This document shows positions 4,207 to 51,121 of a stretch of 51,121 bases of DNA, one piece after another. The notes under the pieces were generated by a model. It searched no databases. It saw only the letters and a list, made by a program, of their open reading frames with translations, and was not told where the DNA came from. This DNA comes from Dysgonamonadaceae bacterium (GTDB taxonomy: Bacteria; Bacteroidota; Bacteroidia; Bacteroidales; Azobacteroidaceae): positions 1 through 51,121 of the forward strand of contig JAISUN010000040.1 in NCBI GenBank assembly GCA_031272085.1. Direction: 5' to 3'. Each line of letters begins with the position of its first letter. Position 1 is the stretch's first letter. The position numbers and the translations under genes are program-made.

Positions 4207-4711
4207 ATTTTAATTTTTCATTCTCAATTATTAATTGTTCCCTGACTTTTTTCCGCGCCCGCGAAAGGTTCATCGTTGCCGCGCTGAGGCTTGTTCCCGT
4301 AATGTCGGCAATTTCCTGCATTTCGCAGCCTTCCACGTCGCGCATTCTGATAATGAGCCTTTGCAGCGGAGGCAGTTGTTCGATAATTCGCCTCACGAAA
4401 TCGGCCAAATCCCGCCTTTCTGCCTCTGTGTGAGGATTTTCAGGGCTTGCTTCGAGCGGAAAATTATCAATTTCGACGCACTCTTTTTCGGCTTTCAGGC
4501 GGTCGAGGCAGATATTTTTCAAAGTCTGTACGGCAAAACCTTGCAGATTGGCGACAACCTCTGTTCTATCGCGAATTTGCCACAGGCGGAGCAGGGTTTC
4601 CTGCACTGCATCTTCGGCGTCGTCTGTATTTTGCAGATACTTTTTCGCCGTCAGAAGCAGGTTTTGCCTGATTGGGATAATTTCCGTCTTGAACCGTTCC
4701 GATTGCTTCAT
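4193..4711 (-). CDS. ECF RNA polymerase sigma factor (sigma-70 family)
   Basis: Region 2 (DDAEDAVQETLLRLWQIRDR) and region 4 (LPPLQRLIIRMRDVEGCEMQEIADITGTSLSAATMNLSRARKKVREQL); start at MKQSERF, not the 4939 ORF start. Confidence 0.93.
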   Translation of the reverse strand: MKQSERFKTEIIPIRQNLLLTAKKYLQNTDDAEDAVQETLLRLWQIRDRTEVVANLQGFAVQTLKNICLDRLKAEKECVEIDNFPLEASPENPHTEAERRDLADFVRRIIEQLPPLQRLIIRMRDVEGCEMQEIADITGTSLSAATMNLSRARKKVREQLIIENEKLKYGKH

Positions 4712-4764
4712 ATACTTTAATGACGAATTAGAGCGGAAAACATAACATTGCAGATTAAATTTTT

Positions 4765-6261
4765 TTATTTTTTCCGCAGAACCAGCAGCCCGACGAACGT
4801 AAACGCTGCGTTCATCAACAAGAGTTCGTAACTGAACTGGTAGCCGCCGAACCATGCCCTTGAATTGAGGTCGAGGACAAGGCACAGTGCAGGCGAAAGC
4901 AGGGCTACGAGCGGGACCCAGCGGTCGCGAACCTGCCATTTGGCGAAAATTCCGAAGGCAAACATCCCCAAAATCGGGCCGTAAGTGTAACTCGCTAAAA
5001 TGTAAACCGCGTCGATAACCGAAGTATTGTTCAGCGCCTTGATGACGAGTATCACAATGCCCATCACGACCGACATCCAGATGTGAACTGCCTTGCGGCG
5101 GCGGGTGGTTTCGGTTTCAGTGTCTTTTTTGGAACTTTCGAGAATATCGACTGTAAATGAAGTAGTTAAGGCTGTCAGCGCCGAGCCTGCCGCAGCGTAA
5201 GCGGCTGATATAAAGCCAAGTATGAATAAAATCCCGACTATTGCAGGGAAATAGCCTCCGGTAGCGAGTTTGGGGAATAAATCGTCGCCTTTCGCGGCAA
5301 TTCCTTCTTTCGCGGCAAACATATAAAGCAGAACGCCCAGTACAAGGAAGAGGAAAATTACAACTGCTTGAAGCAGAGCGGTTATCACGATGTTTTTCTT
5401 TGCGTCGGCCGGATTTTTGCAACTCATATTTTTCTGCATCATATCCTGGTCGAGGCCGGTCATAGCAATCAGCGTGAAAACGCCTGCCAAAAACTGTTTC
5501 ACAAAATGCCGCTTGTCGTTTATGTCGTCGAAAAAGAAAATTTGCGAATAATCGTGAGCCGCAACAGCCGAAACCAATCCGCCCAAATTAAAGCCTAAAC
5601 TCTTGGCTATGAAATAGATACTTAAAATTACCGAAACTACGAGGCAAAGCGTCTTAAACGAATCTGTCCAAATCAGGGTTTTTACTCCGCCGCGGTTGGT
5701 GTAGAGCCATACCAAAGCCATTGATACAACTACATTTACAATAAAAAACAGGATGCTGAACGCTTGCCGGTTTTCGGCAAATACGGCGTATTTTTCAGCC
5801 ATTCCCGACAGAAAAGGCTCAATAACAAGCAGTTGCATTACTGCGCAAACAAGATACAGGCGGACGGCGGCTCCCAACATCTTGGAAATGAAGAAAAACC
5901 ACGCTCCGGTCTTGTAGGACGACATTCCGAAGCGGTTTTCGAGATATTCGTAAATCGAGGTCAGATTCATCTTGTAGAAAAGCGGAATCAGCACGAAAGC
6001 GATGATTAACTGCCCGACTGTGAAGCCTATAACCATTTCCATATACGAAAAGCCTTTTGCGGCCACCATGCCCGGAACCGACACGAAAGTTACGCCCGAA
6101 ATGGCGGCGCCAATCATCGCAAAAGTTACCATTACCCACGACGATTTACGGTTGCCGGTAAAAAAACTCTGATTGTCGGCTTTTCGGCCTGTAATCCGGG
6201 AAATTACGAAAATCGAAATAAAATATGCCGCTACTACGGCGAGAATCAACAATGGACTCAT
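4765..6261 (-). CDS. Sodium:solute symporter (SSS) family transporter
   Basis: Multi-TM; ISGVTFVSVPG, GLDQDMMQKNMSCKNPADAKKN, GFISAAYAAAGSALTALTTSFTVDI motifs. Confidence 0.92.
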   Translation of the reverse strand: MSPLLILAVVAAYFISIFVISRITGRKADNQSFFTGNRKSSWVMVTFAMIGAAISGVTFVSVPGMVAAKGFSYMEMVIGFTVGQLIIAFVLIPLFYKMNLTSIYEYLENRFGMSSYKTGAWFFFISKMLGAAVRLYLVCAVMQLLVIEPFLSGMAEKYAVFAENRQAFSILFFIVNVVVSMALVWLYTNRGGVKTLIWTDSFKTLCLVVSVILSIYFIAKSLGFNLGGLVSAVAAHDYSQIFFFDDINDKRHFVKQFLAGVFTLIAMTGLDQDMMQKNMSCKNPADAKKNIVITALLQAVVIFLFLVLGVLLYMFAAKEGIAAKGDDLFPKLATGGYFPAIVGILFILGFISAAYAAAGSALTALTTSFTVDILESSKKDTETETTRRRKAVHIWMSVVMGIVILVIKALNNTSVIDAVYILASYTYGPILGMFAFGIFAKWQVRDRWVPLVALLSPALCLVLDLNSRAWFGGYQFSYELLLMNAAFTFVGLLVLRKK

Positions 6262-43905: not shown

Positions 43906-43977
43906 TCCGTTTTATCCGCCTCTTTATCCATTTTAACCGCAAAATATAAGCATTTTTTATTTTTTATAGTATTTTTG
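43906..43977 (+). promoter_or_regulatory. Putative LytTR operator and promoter of the lytS-like operon
   Basis: TCCGTTTTATCCGC (43906-43919) and TCCATTTTAACCGC (43927-43940), 21-bp offset, 12/14 identical; -7 box TATTTTTG 43970-43977. Confidence 0.55.
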
Positions 43978-44000
43978 CAAAAAAAGTTTAATTTTGCAAA

Positions 44001-45050
44001 ATGACAAATAAAGCGCAAAATACATTGTTGAGTGTAAAGACGGCATTTCTACTGGCTGTGAGCATAAGTTTGCTGATGAACCTGCTGTTCCTGACAATGC
44101 ACTTCTACGGACGGCCGCCGATTCGTGAAGACAGCCCGATGGGACACGTTTTCAGACTCAACTTCACGCTGATACGCATTTTTACTACTTTTTTGATTGC
44201 ATTCCTGCTCTACATCCTTAATTTCAGCCTTATAAAAAGCAAATTATCTTCGCAAAAGTGGGGAAAAGTCTGGTTTATCCTTATCCTGATTGCTGCTACG
44301 ACGGTGTTAAGCGTGGGCTGTTCGATGTTTCAGCAGCCTTTCGACCGCTTTGCCAAAGATTCACACGCCTTCATTTTCGGCGGATTTATGCGCGACTTCA
44401 CGATTAGCGCTATGGTTACGCTGTCTGCTCTGCTGATGTCTATTTCCGAAAAACAGCAAAAAATGGTGCTGGAAAACGAAATCCTGAAAGCCGAAAATAT
44501 GAAAACCCGCTTTATGGCGCTGAAAAACCAGGTGGACCCGCATTTCCTGTTCAATTCGCTGAATACGCTCGGTTCGCTTATAAACACCGACACCGCAAAG
44601 GCCAACCAGTATTTGCAGCAACTGTCGTTTGTGTTTCGCTATACGCTTCAAAATAAGGAAGTTCTGACGCTCGAAGAAGAAATGAAATACACGATGGCCT
44701 ATTCTCATCTGATGCAGATTCGCTATGGCGACAACCTGAAATTTGTGGATGAGGTTGACAGGAAATATTATCCTTATTCCATAATCTCGATAAGCCTGCA
44801 AACGCTGGTCGAGAACGCGATTAAGCACAATGTGGTAAGCAGTCGCCAGCCGATGACGATAGTTTTCACGACCACCGAAAATGCGACAATCAAGGTGTCG
44901 AATCCCATTCAGCCCAAAAAAGAGCCTGAAATCGGCGAAAGCATCGGCCTCGCCAACCTTGCCGAGCGTTACCGCCTGCTGTGGAACCGCGAAATCTCAA
45001 TCCGCAACGCAAACGGCATTTTTGAAGTAGAAATTCCATTAATCGAATGA
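44001..45050 (+). CDS. LytS/YehU-type sensor histidine kinase (His_kinase, PF06580 type)
   Basis: 4 TM segments; LKNQVDPHFLFNSLNTLGSLI; SLQTLVENAIKHNVV; GLANLAERYRLLW. Confidence 0.95.
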   Translation: MTNKAQNTLLSVKTAFLLAVSISLLMNLLFLTMHFYGRPPIREDSPMGHVFRLNFTLIRIFTTFLIAFLLYILNFSLIKSKLSSQKWGKVWFILILIAATTVLSVGCSMFQQPFDRFAKDSHAFIFGGFMRDFTISAMVTLSALLMSISEKQQKMVLENEILKAENMKTRFMALKNQVDPHFLFNSLNTLGSLINTDTAKANQYLQQLSFVFRYTLQNKEVLTLEEEMKYTMAYSHLMQIRYGDNLKFVDEVDRKYYPYSIISISLQTLVENAIKHNVVSSRQPMTIVFTTTENATIKVSNPIQPKKEPEIGESIGLANLAERYRLLWNREISIRNANGIFEVEIPLIE

Positions 45051-45808
45051 AAGCAATAATCATAGAAGACGAAATTGTGGCGGCGCAGGCTTTGCAGACG
45101 CTGATTGCGGAAGTCGCTCCGGATATGGAAATTATAGCCGTTTTGCAGTCGATAGACGAGAGCGTGGAATGGTTTCAATCCGGCTCCCAGCCCGACCTTG
45201 CGTTTTTAGATATTCATTTGGCCGACGGCTCGGCTTTCACGATTTTTGAGAAAGTTACGGTAAACTGCCCGATAATTTTCACTACCGCCTACGACGAATA
45301 TGCGCTTAAAGCATTTGAAATCAACAGCATAGACTACCTTCTAAAACCGATTGACCGGAAAGCTCTCGAACGGGCAATAAAAAAATTCCGCAATTTTTCG
45401 TTCCAGCAGGATAATTATAACGAGTTGATGAACAAATTGTTAGCGAGCGTCCGCCAGTCGCCGGTTGCCTATAAATCCTATTTTTTGGTTCCGGTAAAGG
45501 ACAAACTTATTCCGCTGCCGGTAGAGCAAATTGCCTGTATTTACATTGATTCACAGCACGTTAAGGCTCTTACTTCCGGAGGTCAGGTTTATTTTCTCGA
45601 CCGCGTTTTAGACGATTTGATGCTGCAACTCGACCCTTCGCAGTTTTACCGCGCCAATCGGCAGTACATTATCGCCCGTCGCGCCGTGAAAGACGTTTCC
45701 CTCTGGTTTGGTGGCAAACTCTCTGCTAATCTTACAGTTACAACTCCCGAGCGGATAATTGTCAGCAAGGCGCGTGCCGGAGAATTTAAGAAGTGGTTGG
45801 CCGGGTAA
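45047..45808 (+). CDS. LytTR-family response regulator
   Basis: Receiver domain (IIEDEIVAAQALQTLI, LAFLDIHLADGSAFTIFEKV, IIFTTAYDEYALKAFEINSIDYLLKPID) plus LytTR domain; ATGA overlap with the kinase. Confidence 0.96.
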   Translation: MKAIIIEDEIVAAQALQTLIAEVAPDMEIIAVLQSIDESVEWFQSGSQPDLAFLDIHLADGSAFTIFEKVTVNCPIIFTTAYDEYALKAFEINSIDYLLKPIDRKALERAIKKFRNFSFQQDNYNELMNKLLASVRQSPVAYKSYFLVPVKDKLIPLPVEQIACIYIDSQHVKALTSGGQVYFLDRVLDDLMLQLDPSQFYRANRQYIIARRAVKDVSLWFGGKLSANLTVTTPERIIVSKARAGEFKKWLAG

Positions 45809-45880
45809 AATTGGATAAATATCATGTTACAGATTACTATTTGCAACAAATAGATTAGAGGGCTTCCTGCCAAAATCCGC

Positions 45881-45952
45881 CCGCCTCACCCGCAATTTTT
45901 ACCGTTTCAGCGTTTTTCCTTTATCCGGAAAAGCCATTATGCCCTAACTTTG
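45881..45952 (+). promoter_or_regulatory. Putative LytTR operator and promoter of the TonB receptor gene
   Basis: CCGCCTCA (45881-45888) and CCGTTTCA (45902-45909), 21-bp offset; -7 box TAACTTTG 45945-45952; no evident -33 TTTG. Confidence 0.55.
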
Positions 45953-45975
45953 GCCGAAAATAACTGAACGAAATA

Positions 45976-48675
45976 ATGTCAAAAACAAAACGAACTTTAT
46001 TGGTATTTCTCTTTTTTGCCGGATTCACCGCCTTCGGCGCGATGGCTCAAACCGGCGACACGACCTTAGTCAGGGAAAAATATTTCGGCCGTCCGCTGCC
46101 AAAAGTGCTTGACGACTTTCAAACAAAGTACGGCTTGCCGCTGAAATACGATTCAGCCCTCGTAGCCAACTATACCTTCGACTGGGTTTATTTGGGAACG
46201 CCTCCAAAACTCGCTTTTGAAGCCATTTTCAGGGTAATAGACGACCTCGCCTATTACACCGACGACAACGGGTATTACTGCATCGTCCTGAAAAAAAACC
46301 TTCCCAAAAACCGCACCAACCTCGAAAACCGGCATTACGCAGGCGAGGCTTCGCGTCAAAACCTGACCGTTACAGGCAGGATAAAAGACCAGACAAACGG
46401 CGAACCTTTGCCTTTCGCCAATGTCTATGTCGATGGACAAAATATTGCTGCACAGACAAATACCGACGGTTATTTCACGCTTTACAACGTGCCTTCGGAT
46501 ACGGTTACTCTCATTTTCAAGTATTTAGGTTACGAAACGCAATATTTTTATCTGTCGCCCGAAGTGAACGTCAATAATCTGTTTGTCGAGTTGCAGCCTG
46601 CGGTCAATACCCTCGACGAGGTTGTCATTGTCCGCAACCGCGAGGACGTGCTGAAAATCCCGGAAATGTCGATAGGAATTATCCAGACTACGGCTGCCAA
46701 AATCGCCGATTTGCCAGCTTTGGGCGAGAAAGACCTGTTCCGCACCTTCCAGTTGATGCCGGGGATTTCGGCGAGCAATGAATCGTCGGCCGGAATGTAC
46801 GTCCGCGGCGGCACTCCCGACCAGAATTTAGTGCTTTACGACGGTTTCACTATCTATCATCAGGAGCATCTGATGGGCGTTTTCAGCGCATTTAACACCA
46901 ACGCGGTAAAGGATGTGCAACTTCACAAGGGCGGATTCGACGCGAAATACGGCGGCCGCCTGTCGAGCGTCATGGAAATTGTAGGCAAAACGGGCGACGA
47001 CAAGGATTTCAACATCGGCGGCGACGTCGGTTTTTTGGGATTCAACGCTTTTGCGGAAGTTCCTTTCGGCGGCGAAAAAGGCTCGTTTTTTATTGCCGGA
47101 CGCCGCTCGTTCCAGAGTTTTATGTACGACAAATTTACAGACGTGTATTCCGAAAATCTTCAAACCGGAAGTTTTGGAGGTGGCCGCGGCGGATTCAATC
47201 AGCGGAATCAGGAAAAACCCGAATCGTATTTCTACGACCTGAACGCCAAACTGACATGGAATCCCAACAAGCGCGATATTATTTCATTGAGTTTTTTCAA
47301 TGGCGAGGATGTGCTTGATAACTCGCGCGACGGCTTCGGAAGCCAGTTTATGAGCGGCAGCATTACCGACAAAACCAACTGGGGAAACGTCGGGGCAAGC
47401 CTCAAATGGTCGCGCAACTGGGACAACCGCCTGTATTCCAACGTATTAGTTTCAGCCTCAAATTATTACAGCCTGCGCAACCGGCAAAACGAGCAAACTT
47501 CCACTTCCGGCTCCACGGCTGTGATGTTCGATATGAACACCAGCGAAAACAACGATTTATGGGATTATTCGCTGAAATTTGAAAACGAATATAAAATCAG
47601 CGGAACTCAAAAATTGGAGTTCGGCCTCAACTATTCGAACTACAATATTGATTACAGTTACGCGCAGAGCGACACCCTGTCGATTCTGAATTTGAAAAAC
47701 AAAGGTAATCTGGCGTCTGTCTATGTTCAGGATAAATTCACGGTCATTGACCGGCTGACCTTGCTTCCGGGGCTTCGATTCTCGTATTTCGACGTTACCT
47801 CAAAGCCATATTTCGAGCCTCGGTTGCAGGTCTTCTACAAACTGTCGCCAAAAGTCAGTTTCAAAGGCTCTGTCGGCCAGTATTACCAGTTTGTAAACCG
47901 CATTGTGCGCGAAGATATTTCGGCCGGAAGCCGCGACATCTGGCTGCTGTCGGACGATGTTGGAATACCGGTCAGCAGCGCGATTCACTACGTTGCAGGC
48001 GGAAGTTATGAAACTCACGATTTCCTGTTCGACGTGGAAGCGTATTACAAAAAACTGTCCAATTTGAGCGAATACACTTTACGCTTTACGCGCTCATTTA
48101 TAGACAATTCCGGCTATCAGGAATTTTTCTACAACGGCAAGGGCTATTCCCGCGGCGTAGATTTTCTTTTGCAGAAAAAATACGGCAAACTAACCGGATG
48201 GATGGCTTACACCTTGGGCGAAACGCGATACAATTTTCCGGTTTACGGCGACGGATATTTCCCTGCGCCACAAGATGTTACCCACGAATTTAAAATCGTG
48301 GCGACTTATAAGCCGATTCGCGACCTGACGCTTTCGGCTACATGGATTTATGCTACCGGAAAGCCTTTCACAGAGCCGATTGGAGCATATTCGCTCAATA
48401 CGCCTAACGGCGGAAATATGAATTTTATCGTGGTCGAGAAGAAAAACAATTCGCGCTACCCCGATTACCACCGTATGGACTTGTTGGCAAAATACGACCT
48501 CTCGTTCATCAAGAGTTTCAAATCGAGCGTAAGCCTCTCACTGTTCAATGTTTATGACCATGTAAACACTTGGTACCGCGAATATTCTTTCGACTATGCC
48601 GAGGGGATTACGGAAACCAACATCAACCTGCTCGGATTTACGCCCAACCTGACGTTGAGTATTCAGTTAAAATAA
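45976..48675 (+). CDS. TonB-dependent outer-membrane receptor (STN-like N-terminus + carboxypeptidase-like regulatory domain)
   Basis: LTVTGRIKDQTNGEPLPFANVYVDGQNIAAQTNTDGYFTLYNVP; plug SAGMYVRGGTPDQNLVLYDGFTIYHQEHLMGVFSAFNTNAVKDVQLHKGGFDAKYGGRLSSVMEI. Confidence 0.95.
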   Translation: MSKTKRTLLVFLFFAGFTAFGAMAQTGDTTLVREKYFGRPLPKVLDDFQTKYGLPLKYDSALVANYTFDWVYLGTPPKLAFEAIFRVIDDLAYYTDDNGYYCIVLKKNLPKNRTNLENRHYAGEASRQNLTVTGRIKDQTNGEPLPFANVYVDGQNIAAQTNTDGYFTLYNVPSDTVTLIFKYLGYETQYFYLSPEVNVNNLFVELQPAVNTLDEVVIVRNREDVLKIPEMSIGIIQTTAAKIADLPALGEKDLFRTFQLMPGISASNESSAGMYVRGGTPDQNLVLYDGFTIYHQEHLMGVFSAFNTNAVKDVQLHKGGFDAKYGGRLSSVMEIVGKTGDDKDFNIGGDVGFLGFNAFAEVPFGGEKGSFFIAGRRSFQSFMYDKFTDVYSENLQTGSFGGGRGGFNQRNQEKPESYFYDLNAKLTWNPNKRDIISLSFFNGEDVLDNSRDGFGSQFMSGSITDKTNWGNVGASLKWSRNWDNRLYSNVLVSASNYYSLRNRQNEQTSTSGSTAVMFDMNTSENNDLWDYSLKFENEYKISGTQKLEFGLNYSNYNIDYSYAQSDTLSILNLKNKGNLASVYVQDKFTVIDRLTLLPGLRFSYFDVTSKPYFEPRLQVFYKLSPKVSFKGSVGQYYQFVNRIVREDISAGSRDIWLLSDDVGIPVSSAIHYVAGGSYETHDFLFDVEAYYKKLSNLSEYTLRFTRSFIDNSGYQEFFYNGKGYSRGVDFLLQKKYGKLTGWMAYTLGETRYNFPVYGDGYFPAPQDVTHEFKIVATYKPIRDLTLSATWIYATGKPFTEPIGAYSLNTPNGGNMNFIVVEKKNNSRYPDYHRMDLLAKYDLSFIKSFKSSVSLSLFNVYDHVNTWYREYSFDYAEGITETNINLLGFTPNLTLSIQLK

Positions 48676-48692
48676 GATTTAAATATATGATT

Positions 48693-49481
48693 ATGAATAA
48701 GATACAAAATATGTTCCGCCGATTTTCAATCGTAACTTGCGCCTTGCTCGCCGGCTGTGGCCAGGAGTTGATGAATTACGATATTGATACCGAAACGCCT
48801 GTTGTGGAAAGTTATCTGCAAGAAGGCGCAACCTCGCTCACAGTGAAGGTTTACACCATGGAAGTCTATCTGAAAGACGGCATCGATGTTTCGGACGCCA
48901 TTGGCGGGCTGTCGATAAAAGTCAACGGCCGTGAACTGACGGAAACCGTCGAGGGGACTTATGTCCTTGATTTAGGGACAGATACGCTTCGGCAAGGCCA
49001 GGCTTTCGACCTTAATTTCGACTACGGCGGACGCGCCATAACAGCCTCAACTACTGTCCCGGAGCCGGTTCGCAACTTGCAAGCCGAGCCTACAAGCCTC
49101 GCCATTTCAAGTTCCTATTATTGGAGTACGGAAGATTCTACGGCAGTTACCGTAACATGGGACGACCCCGACGGCAGTTATTATCAGGTTTATATTTTAA
49201 GTCCGAACACAAGCGATATGCCCTCTATGGGCGTTTTTGGCCGGCGGATGATGCAGCCGTTCAAGGGAAATTCATATAAGGCTTCGGGGATGGAATTTCG
49301 CTCCACAGGCTGGCATACCATTTACGTTTACCGTGTGAATAAGGATTATGCCGAACTTTACGAGCAGGTCAGTTCGACCGATTTGGCCAATCCGATAAGT
49401 TTTATCGACAATGCTTTCGGCATTTTTACGGCAATGAGCGTTGCGCGGGTCGGGATTTATGTTTATGAGGAGGATGAATGA
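48693..49481 (+). CDS. DUF4249-family lipoprotein, partner of the TonB receptor
   Basis: Lipobox CALLAGCGQELMNYDIDTETPVVESYLQEGATSLTVKVYTME...; position directly after the TonB receptor; alternative start 48687. Confidence 0.85.
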   Translation: MNKIQNMFRRFSIVTCALLAGCGQELMNYDIDTETPVVESYLQEGATSLTVKVYTMEVYLKDGIDVSDAIGGLSIKVNGRELTETVEGTYVLDLGTDTLRQGQAFDLNFDYGGRAITASTTVPEPVRNLQAEPTSLAISSSYYWSTEDSTAVTVTWDDPDGSYYQVYILSPNTSDMPSMGVFGRRMMQPFKGNSYKASGMEFRSTGWHTIYVYRVNKDYAELYEQVSSTDLANPISFIDNAFGIFTAMSVARVGIYVYEEDE

Positions 49482-49484
49482 GTT

Positions 49485-50570
49485 TTATCTTCCGATATAC
49501 TTTTTCCAGAATCCGGGCGTAGCGGTAAAGTCAGATTCAAACAAAACACTGTCCCATTGTTTGATGCGTTTTTTCTTTGCCGATTTGTCTGTTGCAGCCG
49601 GCTCTACCGCATGGATGCTCGTGCAGGTTACAAGTTTTAGTTGATATGTCAGATTTTTCCAGTCGGTAAATTCTTCTAATTTATACGAGCCTTCTTCATC
49701 GCTGAATTTCACTTTAAAATATGCTTTACTTCCCCGCGTTCCCATTGATTGCTGAAAAATCCATTCAACCAAAGTCGTATCTTCCAGATTGACAGTGAAT
49801 AAATTATAGAGGTACCCGCCGGAAGGGTCGGCGTCTGATTTTTTAGGCGACGATTTTATTACAAGGAGGCCATCCTTATTTTCGTAACGTTTAAAAACAT
49901 TGGAATTATTAATCCCGATAAAATAGAAGCGCGAGGGAAAAATTAATCCATTGATTAAACGCCCCTTATCAGAATACATGCTACTGTCGATTTTGTTGCT
50001 GACAACGTCTAAACGAAGCAAATCAATATCTGATTTCATTTCCATTTTTTTAGGATTGACATTTAACGAAACGTCAATCAGGGCGTATGCTTCCATCCGT
50101 CCGTTTATTGAGGATTCCTTTTCGGAATGGAGCAAGTAAAAATTTTTCTGTTTCGAGGGCATACGGTTGTACAGATTTTGAAGCGCTTTGCTCAAAATTT
50201 CTTTTACAAAAAGCGGCTCGACAGTGATTTCTCCCAATTCCACAATGCGATAATCCAGATAGACATTCGGATTCATAATAAGCGAATCGAGCGGGATTTC
50301 CCTGTAATTGTACGCTAATTGCTGAAAATAAACCAATTCCGCCGGATTTGCCGAAATGGTGTAACGTCCGTCCTCATCGGTAACGACAAAACTTTTACCG
50401 TCATTTGTGCCGACAACTGCGTCGGGAACCGGTTTTCCCGTTTCGCTATCGAAAACCTGCCCTGATATTGTTGTTTGCGAAAAGGCGAACAATGGGCAGC
50501 AAAGCAATGCTGCAAAAATAAAAGTTGTTTTAGCCATAATTTGATATTTTTTGTTCATAATATTGTGCAA
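49485..50570 (-). CDS. Secreted protein with N-terminal carboxypeptidase-regulatory-like domain, unknown function
   Basis: Signal peptide; TTISGQVFDSETGKPVPDAVVGTNDGKSFVVTDEDGRYTISA. Confidence 0.75.
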   Translation of the reverse strand: MHNIMNKKYQIMAKTTFIFAALLCCPLFAFSQTTISGQVFDSETGKPVPDAVVGTNDGKSFVVTDEDGRYTISANPAELVYFQQLAYNYREIPLDSLIMNPNVYLDYRIVELGEITVEPLFVKEILSKALQNLYNRMPSKQKNFYLLHSEKESSINGRMEAYALIDVSLNVNPKKMEMKSDIDLLRLDVVSNKIDSSMYSDKGRLINGLIFPSRFYFIGINNSNVFKRYENKDGLLVIKSSPKKSDADPSGGYLYNLFTVNLEDTTLVEWIFQQSMGTRGSKAYFKVKFSDEEGSYKLEEFTDWKNLTYQLKLVTCTSIHAVEPAATDKSAKKKRIKQWDSVLFESDFTATPGFWKKYIGR

Positions 50571-50644
50571 AATAAGATTTTATCAAATGAAAAAACAAAT
50601 TTTTTGCGTTAATAATTGCAAAAAGGGAATATCTGCTTTTTGTG

Positions 50645-50736
50645 CGTTTCACCCCAATATTTATGCGTTTCAGGGGCAATAAATGCCGTTTCGCACGATT
50701 TTCCCGCCTTTTTGCTTCGTTTTTTGTCTAATTTTG
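50645..50736 (+). promoter_or_regulatory. Putative LytTR operator (three 21-bp-spaced repeats) and promoter of the tolC-like gene
   Basis: CGTTTCA 50645-50651, CGTTTCA 50666-50672, CGTTTCG 50687-50693; -7 box TAATTTTG 50729-50736. Confidence 0.6.
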
Positions 50737-50756: not shown

Positions 50757-51121
50757 ATGAAACAAATTTTAACAGGCATTTTGCTCTTTCTGTTTGCGGC
50801 GGGCGTTTCGGCTCAATCCGAAATCCACCGCTTTACCCTCGAAGACTGCCTCGACTATGCTTTCGGAAATAATTATAACCTGCAATCAATGCGGCTTTCG
50901 GAACGGTCGGCGGAAAGCGCTTACCAACAGTCGAAAATGGAACGGCTGCCATCTTTAAGCGCATCGGCAAGCGAATCGCTGTCCGACAGCAAAGGCGCAG
51001 ATGCTTCAATATCAGGAAGTTATGGAGTTAGCGCAAGTATGACGCTCTATCAGGGCGGAACGATTACAAACACTATCGAACAGAACAAATTGAAGTTAGA
51101 ACAGTCGGCGCTGCAAACTTC
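50757..51121 (+). CDS. TolC-family outer-membrane efflux protein, N-terminal part, truncated by window end
   Basis: Signal peptide MKQILTGILLFLFAAGVSAQ; HRFTLEDCLDYAFGNNYNLQSMRLSERSAESAYQQSKMERLPSLSASAS; frame remains open to 51121. Confidence 0.88.
   Translation, partial: MKQILTGILLFLFAAGVSAQSEIHRFTLEDCLDYAFGNNYNLQSMRLSERSAESAYQQSKMERLPSLSASASESLSDSKGADASISGSYGVSASMTLYQGGTITNTIEQNKLKLEQSALQT

Follow-up and report, generated by a model that had tools for sequence, protein, structure and literature searches.

Tandem-repeat promoters point to a small LytTR regulon of efflux and outer-membrane genes in Bacteroidales

A stretch of 51,121 nucleotides from a Dysgonamonadaceae bacterium (contig JAISUN010000040.1, hereafter the window; the genome holding it is G000) carries three promoters with tandem repeats, which very probably constitute a small regulon of the adjacent two-component LytTR system (probability of roughly 0.85). 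The proposed members are the operon of this system itself, a TolC efflux operon, and a gene pair encoding a TonB receptor and a DUF4249 protein. Sequence comparison shows where the sites are, that their spacing is conserved, which genes they precede, how these genes are linked in operons, and that the sites co-occur with the regulator, hereafter LytTR-A. The 21-bp repeat layout in the window was confirmed as real and far above chance.

Repeat pairs and proteins of the window locus

The features of the locus are listed below, with the evidence in brackets.

43906–43940, + strand: two direct repeats (43906–43919 and 43927–43940) of the kinase-regulator promoter (coordinate check, genome motif scan)
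43970–43977, + strand: -7 box TATTTTTG of the kinase promoter (coordinate check)
44001–45050, + strand: histidine kinase (PF06580) with 3–4 predicted membrane segments and no recognised Pfam sensor domain (domain search)
45047–45808, + strand: response regulator with a receiver and a LytTR domain (domain search)
45881–45909, + strand: pair of direct repeats starting at 45881 and 45902 in the TonB receptor promoter, the distal one degenerate (coordinate check, motif scan)
45945–45952, + strand: -7 box TAACTTTG of the TonB receptor promoter (coordinate check)
45976–48675, + strand: TonB-dependent receptor with a carboxypeptidase-regulatory-like domain (domain search; promoter repeats in the orthologues of G044 and L035)
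48687–49481, + strand: DUF4249-type lipoprotein, partner of the receptor (orthologue L257 passes PF14054)
50645–50693, + strand: triplet of direct repeats starting at 50645, 50666 and 50687 in the tolC promoter (coordinate check, motif scan)
50729–50736, + strand: -7 box TAATTTTG of the tolC promoter (coordinate check)
50757–51121, + strand: first part of a tolC-like gene for outer membrane efflux, truncated at the contig end (domain search)

The kinase promoter contains the repeats TCCGTTTTATCCGC at 43906 and TCCATTTTAACCGC at 43927, the TonB receptor promoter contains CCGCCTCA at 45881 and CCGTTTCA at 45902, and the tolC promoter has CGTTTCA at 50645 and 50666 followed by CGTTTCG at 50687; each offset equals 21 bp. 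The distance from the proximal CC[GA]TTT to the -7 box, which begins at 43970, 45945 and 50729, respectively, is 42 bp for the kinase and 43 bp for both other promoters, and the start codon follows 20–23 bp downstream of the end of the -7 box in all three cases. The repeat and -7 box coordinates, offsets and distances reported in an earlier note on this DNA were all exact on recheck. Each promoter has a good -7 box (TAnnTTTG) and no visible good -33 element, and the repeats are located just upstream of the -33 region. This is the arrangement of a LytTR-type target promoter, i.e., two direct repeats of 9–11 nt separated by a gap of 11–13 nt (PMC4847170) upstream of the core promoter.

The product of 45047–45808, which the earlier note had taken for a LytTR regulator, was verified by domain search as a response regulator with a LytTR domain (PF04397, residues 152–251, 58.3 bits vs. 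a curated cut-off of 22.6) and an N-terminal receiver (PF00072, 47.6 bits), whose phospho-acceptor Asp is D55 in FLDIHL. The description of the kinase as "lytS-like" holds for its PF06580 core but not for the sensor part, since PF06580 was the sole domain found and the LytS 5TM domain (5TM-LYT, PF07694) that marks LytS/LytTR kinases was not among the matches. Similarly, the DUF4249 label stands by orthology, as a 60%-identical orthologue (L257) exceeds the PF14054 cut-off, but the window protein itself misses the Pfam model. Only the first 121 codons of tolC are on the contig, and elsewhere in G000 only 30%-identical MacB paralogues were found.

Recurrence of the motif in unseen loci

The scored pattern was CRTTTCA-N14-CRTTTCA with at most two mismatches, located 41 or 42 bp before TAnnTTTG. 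The window has three matches, both strands counted, compared with a mean of 0.0 in 300 dinucleotide shuffles. Because this pattern was derived from the window sites themselves and a motif-free 8-mer repeat test of the window alone was unremarkable (offset 21 tied with 9 and 11, and the test was not used as support), the weight of the case rests on unseen sequence. The unseen set comprised whole loci around 38 LytTR relatives from across the Bacteroidales (616 kb, 44–73% identity), which were scanned regardless of position. At the same mismatch threshold, 16 matches were obtained at offset 21 vs. 0–1 at each other offset between 10 and 32, and 16 at a distance of 41/42 vs. 0–1 at other distances below 60, whereas shuffles expect 0.05. 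A few additional matches at distances of 61–64 fit promoters with a third repeat. For 15 of the 16 matches, what follows is the kinase-LytTR pair, by itself or within an efflux operon, or else tolC or a TonB receptor (in L063 the table lists LytTR as the next gene, since the open reading frame caller started the kinase early). The proximal half-sites of 27 promoters have the consensus YCC[GA]TTTCA, and a flanking C that lies outside the search pattern is conserved in 26 of them.

Efflux operons and co-occurrence with the regulator

Among the relatives, the site is kept at the same offset and distance before tolC (G002, G011, G014, G016, G019, G020, G027, G034, G077 and L037), before the TonB receptor orthologues (G044 and L035) and before the kinase (L035, L039–L044, L046, L063 and L068), being located just before the kinase gene in L039–L044, which come from rumen and other Bacteroidales. 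The pump of the tolC operon is of the MacAB type in relatives. Genes for an outer membrane efflux protein (OEP), a membrane fusion protein (MFP) and MacB ATPase/permease occur together in G014, G016, G019, G020, G027, G044 and G077, and the order tolC-MFP-MacB ATPase-MacB permease-kinase-LytTR with the motif upstream of tolC was found in G014, G016, G020, G027, G044, G077 and the Tannerella locus L037. A motif upstream of such an operon would place the regulator under its own control. Operon structure in relatives supports both proposals of the earlier note, that the regulator controls itself and that it is tied to a TolC efflux operon. Two other configurations were observed: in G011 one uninterrupted run of genes comprises TonB receptor, DUF4249, kinase and LytTR, with a separate tolC-MFP-MacB operon that also carries the motif, and in L035 the receptor pair is divergent from the kinase-LytTR pair, with three repeats at both promoters. 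In Bacteroides fragilis S82 (L057:3651–10780), as well as in L055, the site precedes a gene for an AcrB/OEP fusion, followed by MFP, kinase and LytTR genes. The L057 fusion unites the AcrB-family and OEP domains in one protein of 1439 aa, and the promoter of its gene carries the 21-bp repeats.

By one fixed rule (site with at most three mismatches), the tolC site is present in 10 of the 11 records with LytTR-A, window included, and in none of the five without it; the exact probability of this table, calculated by hand and treating related genomes as independent, is 11/8008 = 0.0014. Among 203 other upstream regions, one alone scores within three mismatches, namely that of a TetR-TolC-MFP-AcrB efflux operon in G027 (contig C10, L181:6736–7568), where a regulon-type site is present. 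This suggests a second pump under the same regulator, making the operon a plausible regulon member.

Additional candidate members in G000

The genome G000 is a metagenome-assembled genome (MAG) of 2.63 Mb in 139 contigs with 82% completeness. Searched by pattern, it contains nine matches with at most three mismatches vs. one for the reversed control pattern; the same scan over 81 genomes was noisy outside G000, and the interpretation was restricted to low-mismatch matches. With at most two mismatches, only the three window promoters and two further gene-proximal promoters, on contigs C33 and C101, were recovered. Scattering of the motif away from promoters, which the earlier note had named as the outcome that would speak against a regulon, was not seen, as the best matches in G000 are all gene-proximal promoters. 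On C33 (L174:4286–4798), a one-mismatch site is located approximately 31 bp before the gene of a Ser/Thr-rich lipoprotein of 136 aa (4388–4798), for which no family match was obtained. The C101 site (L175:9562–10263) precedes the gene of a secreted protein of roughly 200 aa with Gly/Pro-rich ends and a conserved charged core; the protein and its homologues (L175, L179, L271 and L272) were found in only four of the 81 genomes. Its matches to CpxP (26.5 bits vs. 160 in NCBIfam, E 4.8e-6) and Metal_resist (20.4 vs. 29.2 bits) are below the curated cut-offs, the comparison with solved structures in PDB gave chance-level coiled-coil matches only, and the G009 orthologue has no CpxP/Metal_resist-type Pfam match. 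The protein is possibly CpxP-like, which would hint at a role in envelope stress.

The C101-type promoter layout also occurs in G009 and on contig C50 of G044. The latter (L178:4538–4950) holds a second copy of the C101-type gene with an intact regulon-type promoter and a frame that stops after about 60 codons; an intact homologue without the motif is located on contig C64 of the same genome. Within the window, a gene for a carboxypeptidase-regulatory-like protein (49485–50558, - strand) was considered as a regulon member and dropped, as there is no motif at the right distance on the minus strand.

A second LytTR system and alternative explanations

Six genomes (G004, G006, G009, G014, G029 and G031) have another kinase-LytTR pair, LytTR-B (records L257, L259, L260, L261, L262 and L275), near the receptor, near tolC or near a Cthe_2159-domain gene. 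LytTR-B is about 26–34% identical to the window regulator and at least 58% identical among its own members. Promoters near LytTR-B lack CRTTTCA and have other repeats instead, e.g., GTTCACC-like ones. Both systems are present in G019, with the CRTTTCA site at tolC and LytTR-B-type repeats at the receptor. This looks like a possible exchange of regulators on a shared target module in sister genomes.

The association of the same receptor module with LytTR-B raises the alternative that the repeats are LytTR sites mainly used, at least at the TonB receptor, by another LytTR protein of G000. Candidates would be a LytTR-B orthologue in the unassembled 18% of this incomplete assembly, or a 125-aa protein consisting of a LytTR domain only, which is encoded on contig C104 (L190:5160–5537) and is not tied to the motif; G009, which has the site and LytTR-B with no LytTR-A detected, also speaks for such a user. 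However, no LytTR-B match was found in G000 at E <= 1e-25, CRTTTCA is missing from the promoters near LytTR-B, and CRTTTCA sites stand directly before LytTR-A operons across the Bacteroidales, so we regard this alternative as improbable. A repressor acting at some or all of the promoters appears even less probable: the direction of control is not readable from sequence alone, but the repeats do not overlap the core promoter and are instead placed upstream of the -33 region, a good -33 element is not apparent, and the described LytTR sites with this layout activate. As for chance matches in T-rich promoter DNA, the motif is indeed short and T-rich, and the motif-free window test was not significant; nevertheless, the 16 matches in unseen loci vs. 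0.05 expected, sharply concentrated at a single offset and a single distance, refute this explanation, to which we assign a negligible probability.

Several observations weigh against a LytTR-A regulon of the proposed extent. The compared genomes are related, and the counts are thus not independent events. The lone exception among the 11 records, G044, has a tolC promoter that keeps both repeats with a degenerate -7 box, and the distant operons L038, L052 and L056 have tolC without the motif. The tolC sites of G034 and G038 (0 and 4 mismatches) are on contigs ending before the expected kinase-LytTR genes. A site precedes the CpxP-like gene of G009, where no LytTR-A orthologue was detected (this genome is 87% complete, so the regulator gene may be missing from the assembly), and the CpxP-like label of the C101 protein is itself a weak NCBIfam match that neither PDB nor its G009 orthologue supports.

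Proposed mechanism

In the proposed LytTR-A regulon, the response regulator of the pair at 44001–45808 would bind the tandem repeats YCC[GA]TTTCA-N12-YCC[GA]TTTCA, which, with their 21-bp period, would lie on the same helix face just upstream of the -33 region of Bacteroidetes-type promoters. The phosphorylated regulator would then recruit RNA polymerase to promoters with a good -7 box and a poor -33 region, switching on its own operon, which would create a positive feedback, together with the TolC efflux operon (TolC-MFP-MacB in relatives), the TonB receptor/DUF4249 pair, the secreted, possibly CpxP-like C101 protein and the small C33 lipoprotein. Activators that recruit RNA polymerase usually have their sites arranged in this way, with repeats on one helix face that stop shortly before a promoter whose -33 is poor; we propose activation with positive feedback because of this layout and the geometry of described LytTR sites. 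Direct binding by LytTR-A, activation rather than repression, and the signal are what we infer from these features. The system likely responds to damage of the cell envelope or to toxic substances expelled by the pump.

In relatives the kinase gene directly follows that of the MacB-type permease, and the kinase might therefore sense its signal through the pump. A broader scenario, which we consider rather unlikely as a whole, is that the sensor-domain-less kinase reads the state of the pump of its own operon (MacB-type, or AcrB-type in Bacteroides) and, via the LytTR repeats, raises the pump and adjusts the outer-membrane receptor and periplasmic proteins, the receptor module having been taken over in sister genomes by a second LytTR system, from another branch and with a different site, i.e., regulator replacement.

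Comparison with known systems

Direct-repeat promoters of LytTR regulators (AgrA, YpdB, BtsR) are a known kind; what is new is this regulon with its target set, and its motif now extends over much of the Bacteroidales. Bacteroidota have many two-component LytTR systems. The exact motif, the rule for its distance and the list of targets hold from MAGs of uncultured Bacteroidales to Bacteroides fragilis, which makes them testable in a genetically tractable gut species, and they predict that a single kinase-regulator pair controls efflux pumps in B. fragilis. Three features are less expected: an outer-membrane receptor is paired with efflux genes among the proposed targets, the kinase next to a MacB-type pump has no recognised sensor domain, and in sister genomes a second LytTR system has the same receptor module, which is likely an example of a single module shared between two regulators.

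Regulators of the AgrA/ComE type combine a receiver with a LytTR domain, as does the window regulator, recognise direct repeats separated by 12 bp and activate their own expression, whereas no peptide signal genes were seen at the window system and its targets are envelope and efflux genes. Transporter-coupled kinases are known from BceRS-BceAB-type systems, which have OmpR-type regulators and occur in Gram-positives. The likeness lies in a kinase without an evident sensor domain whose gene, in relatives, immediately follows that of a MacB-type ABC permease; the window regulator is of the LytTR rather than the OmpR type, and contact between kinase and pump would here be hypothetical.

In E. 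coli, the yhjX promoter contains a direct repeat of GGCATTTCAT to which the regulator YpdB binds (PMC4847170), and the core CATTTCA of this repeat equals the motif of the window promoters. YpdA/YpdB-yhjX and BtsS/BtsR-btsT likewise consist of a kinase and a LytTR regulator with a membrane transporter as the target. By contrast, the window kinase lacks the LytS-type multi-pass sensor domain, its operon carries its own site, the targets include an efflux operon, a TonB receptor and envelope proteins, and the promoters are of the Bacteroidetes -7/-33 type.

No published description of the regulon was found in the literature searched (most subscription journals are outside this coverage), where sites described for LytTR systems of Bacteroidota were found only for operons resembling the LytTR regulatory system (LRS). 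In these Bacteroides operons, the direct repeats TCCGGTATTCA and ACCGGAAATCA are separated by 11 bp and located 11 bp before the -33 element, followed after 19 bp by TATCTTTG (PMC6193735). Their geometry is nearly the same as that of the window sites, the bases are partly the same, and autoregulation is presumed. An LRS, however, pairs a LytTR protein with a membrane protein and has no kinase or receiver, whereas the window regulator has a receiver and a histidine kinase as its partner, i.e., it belongs to a true two-component system, with several target operons.

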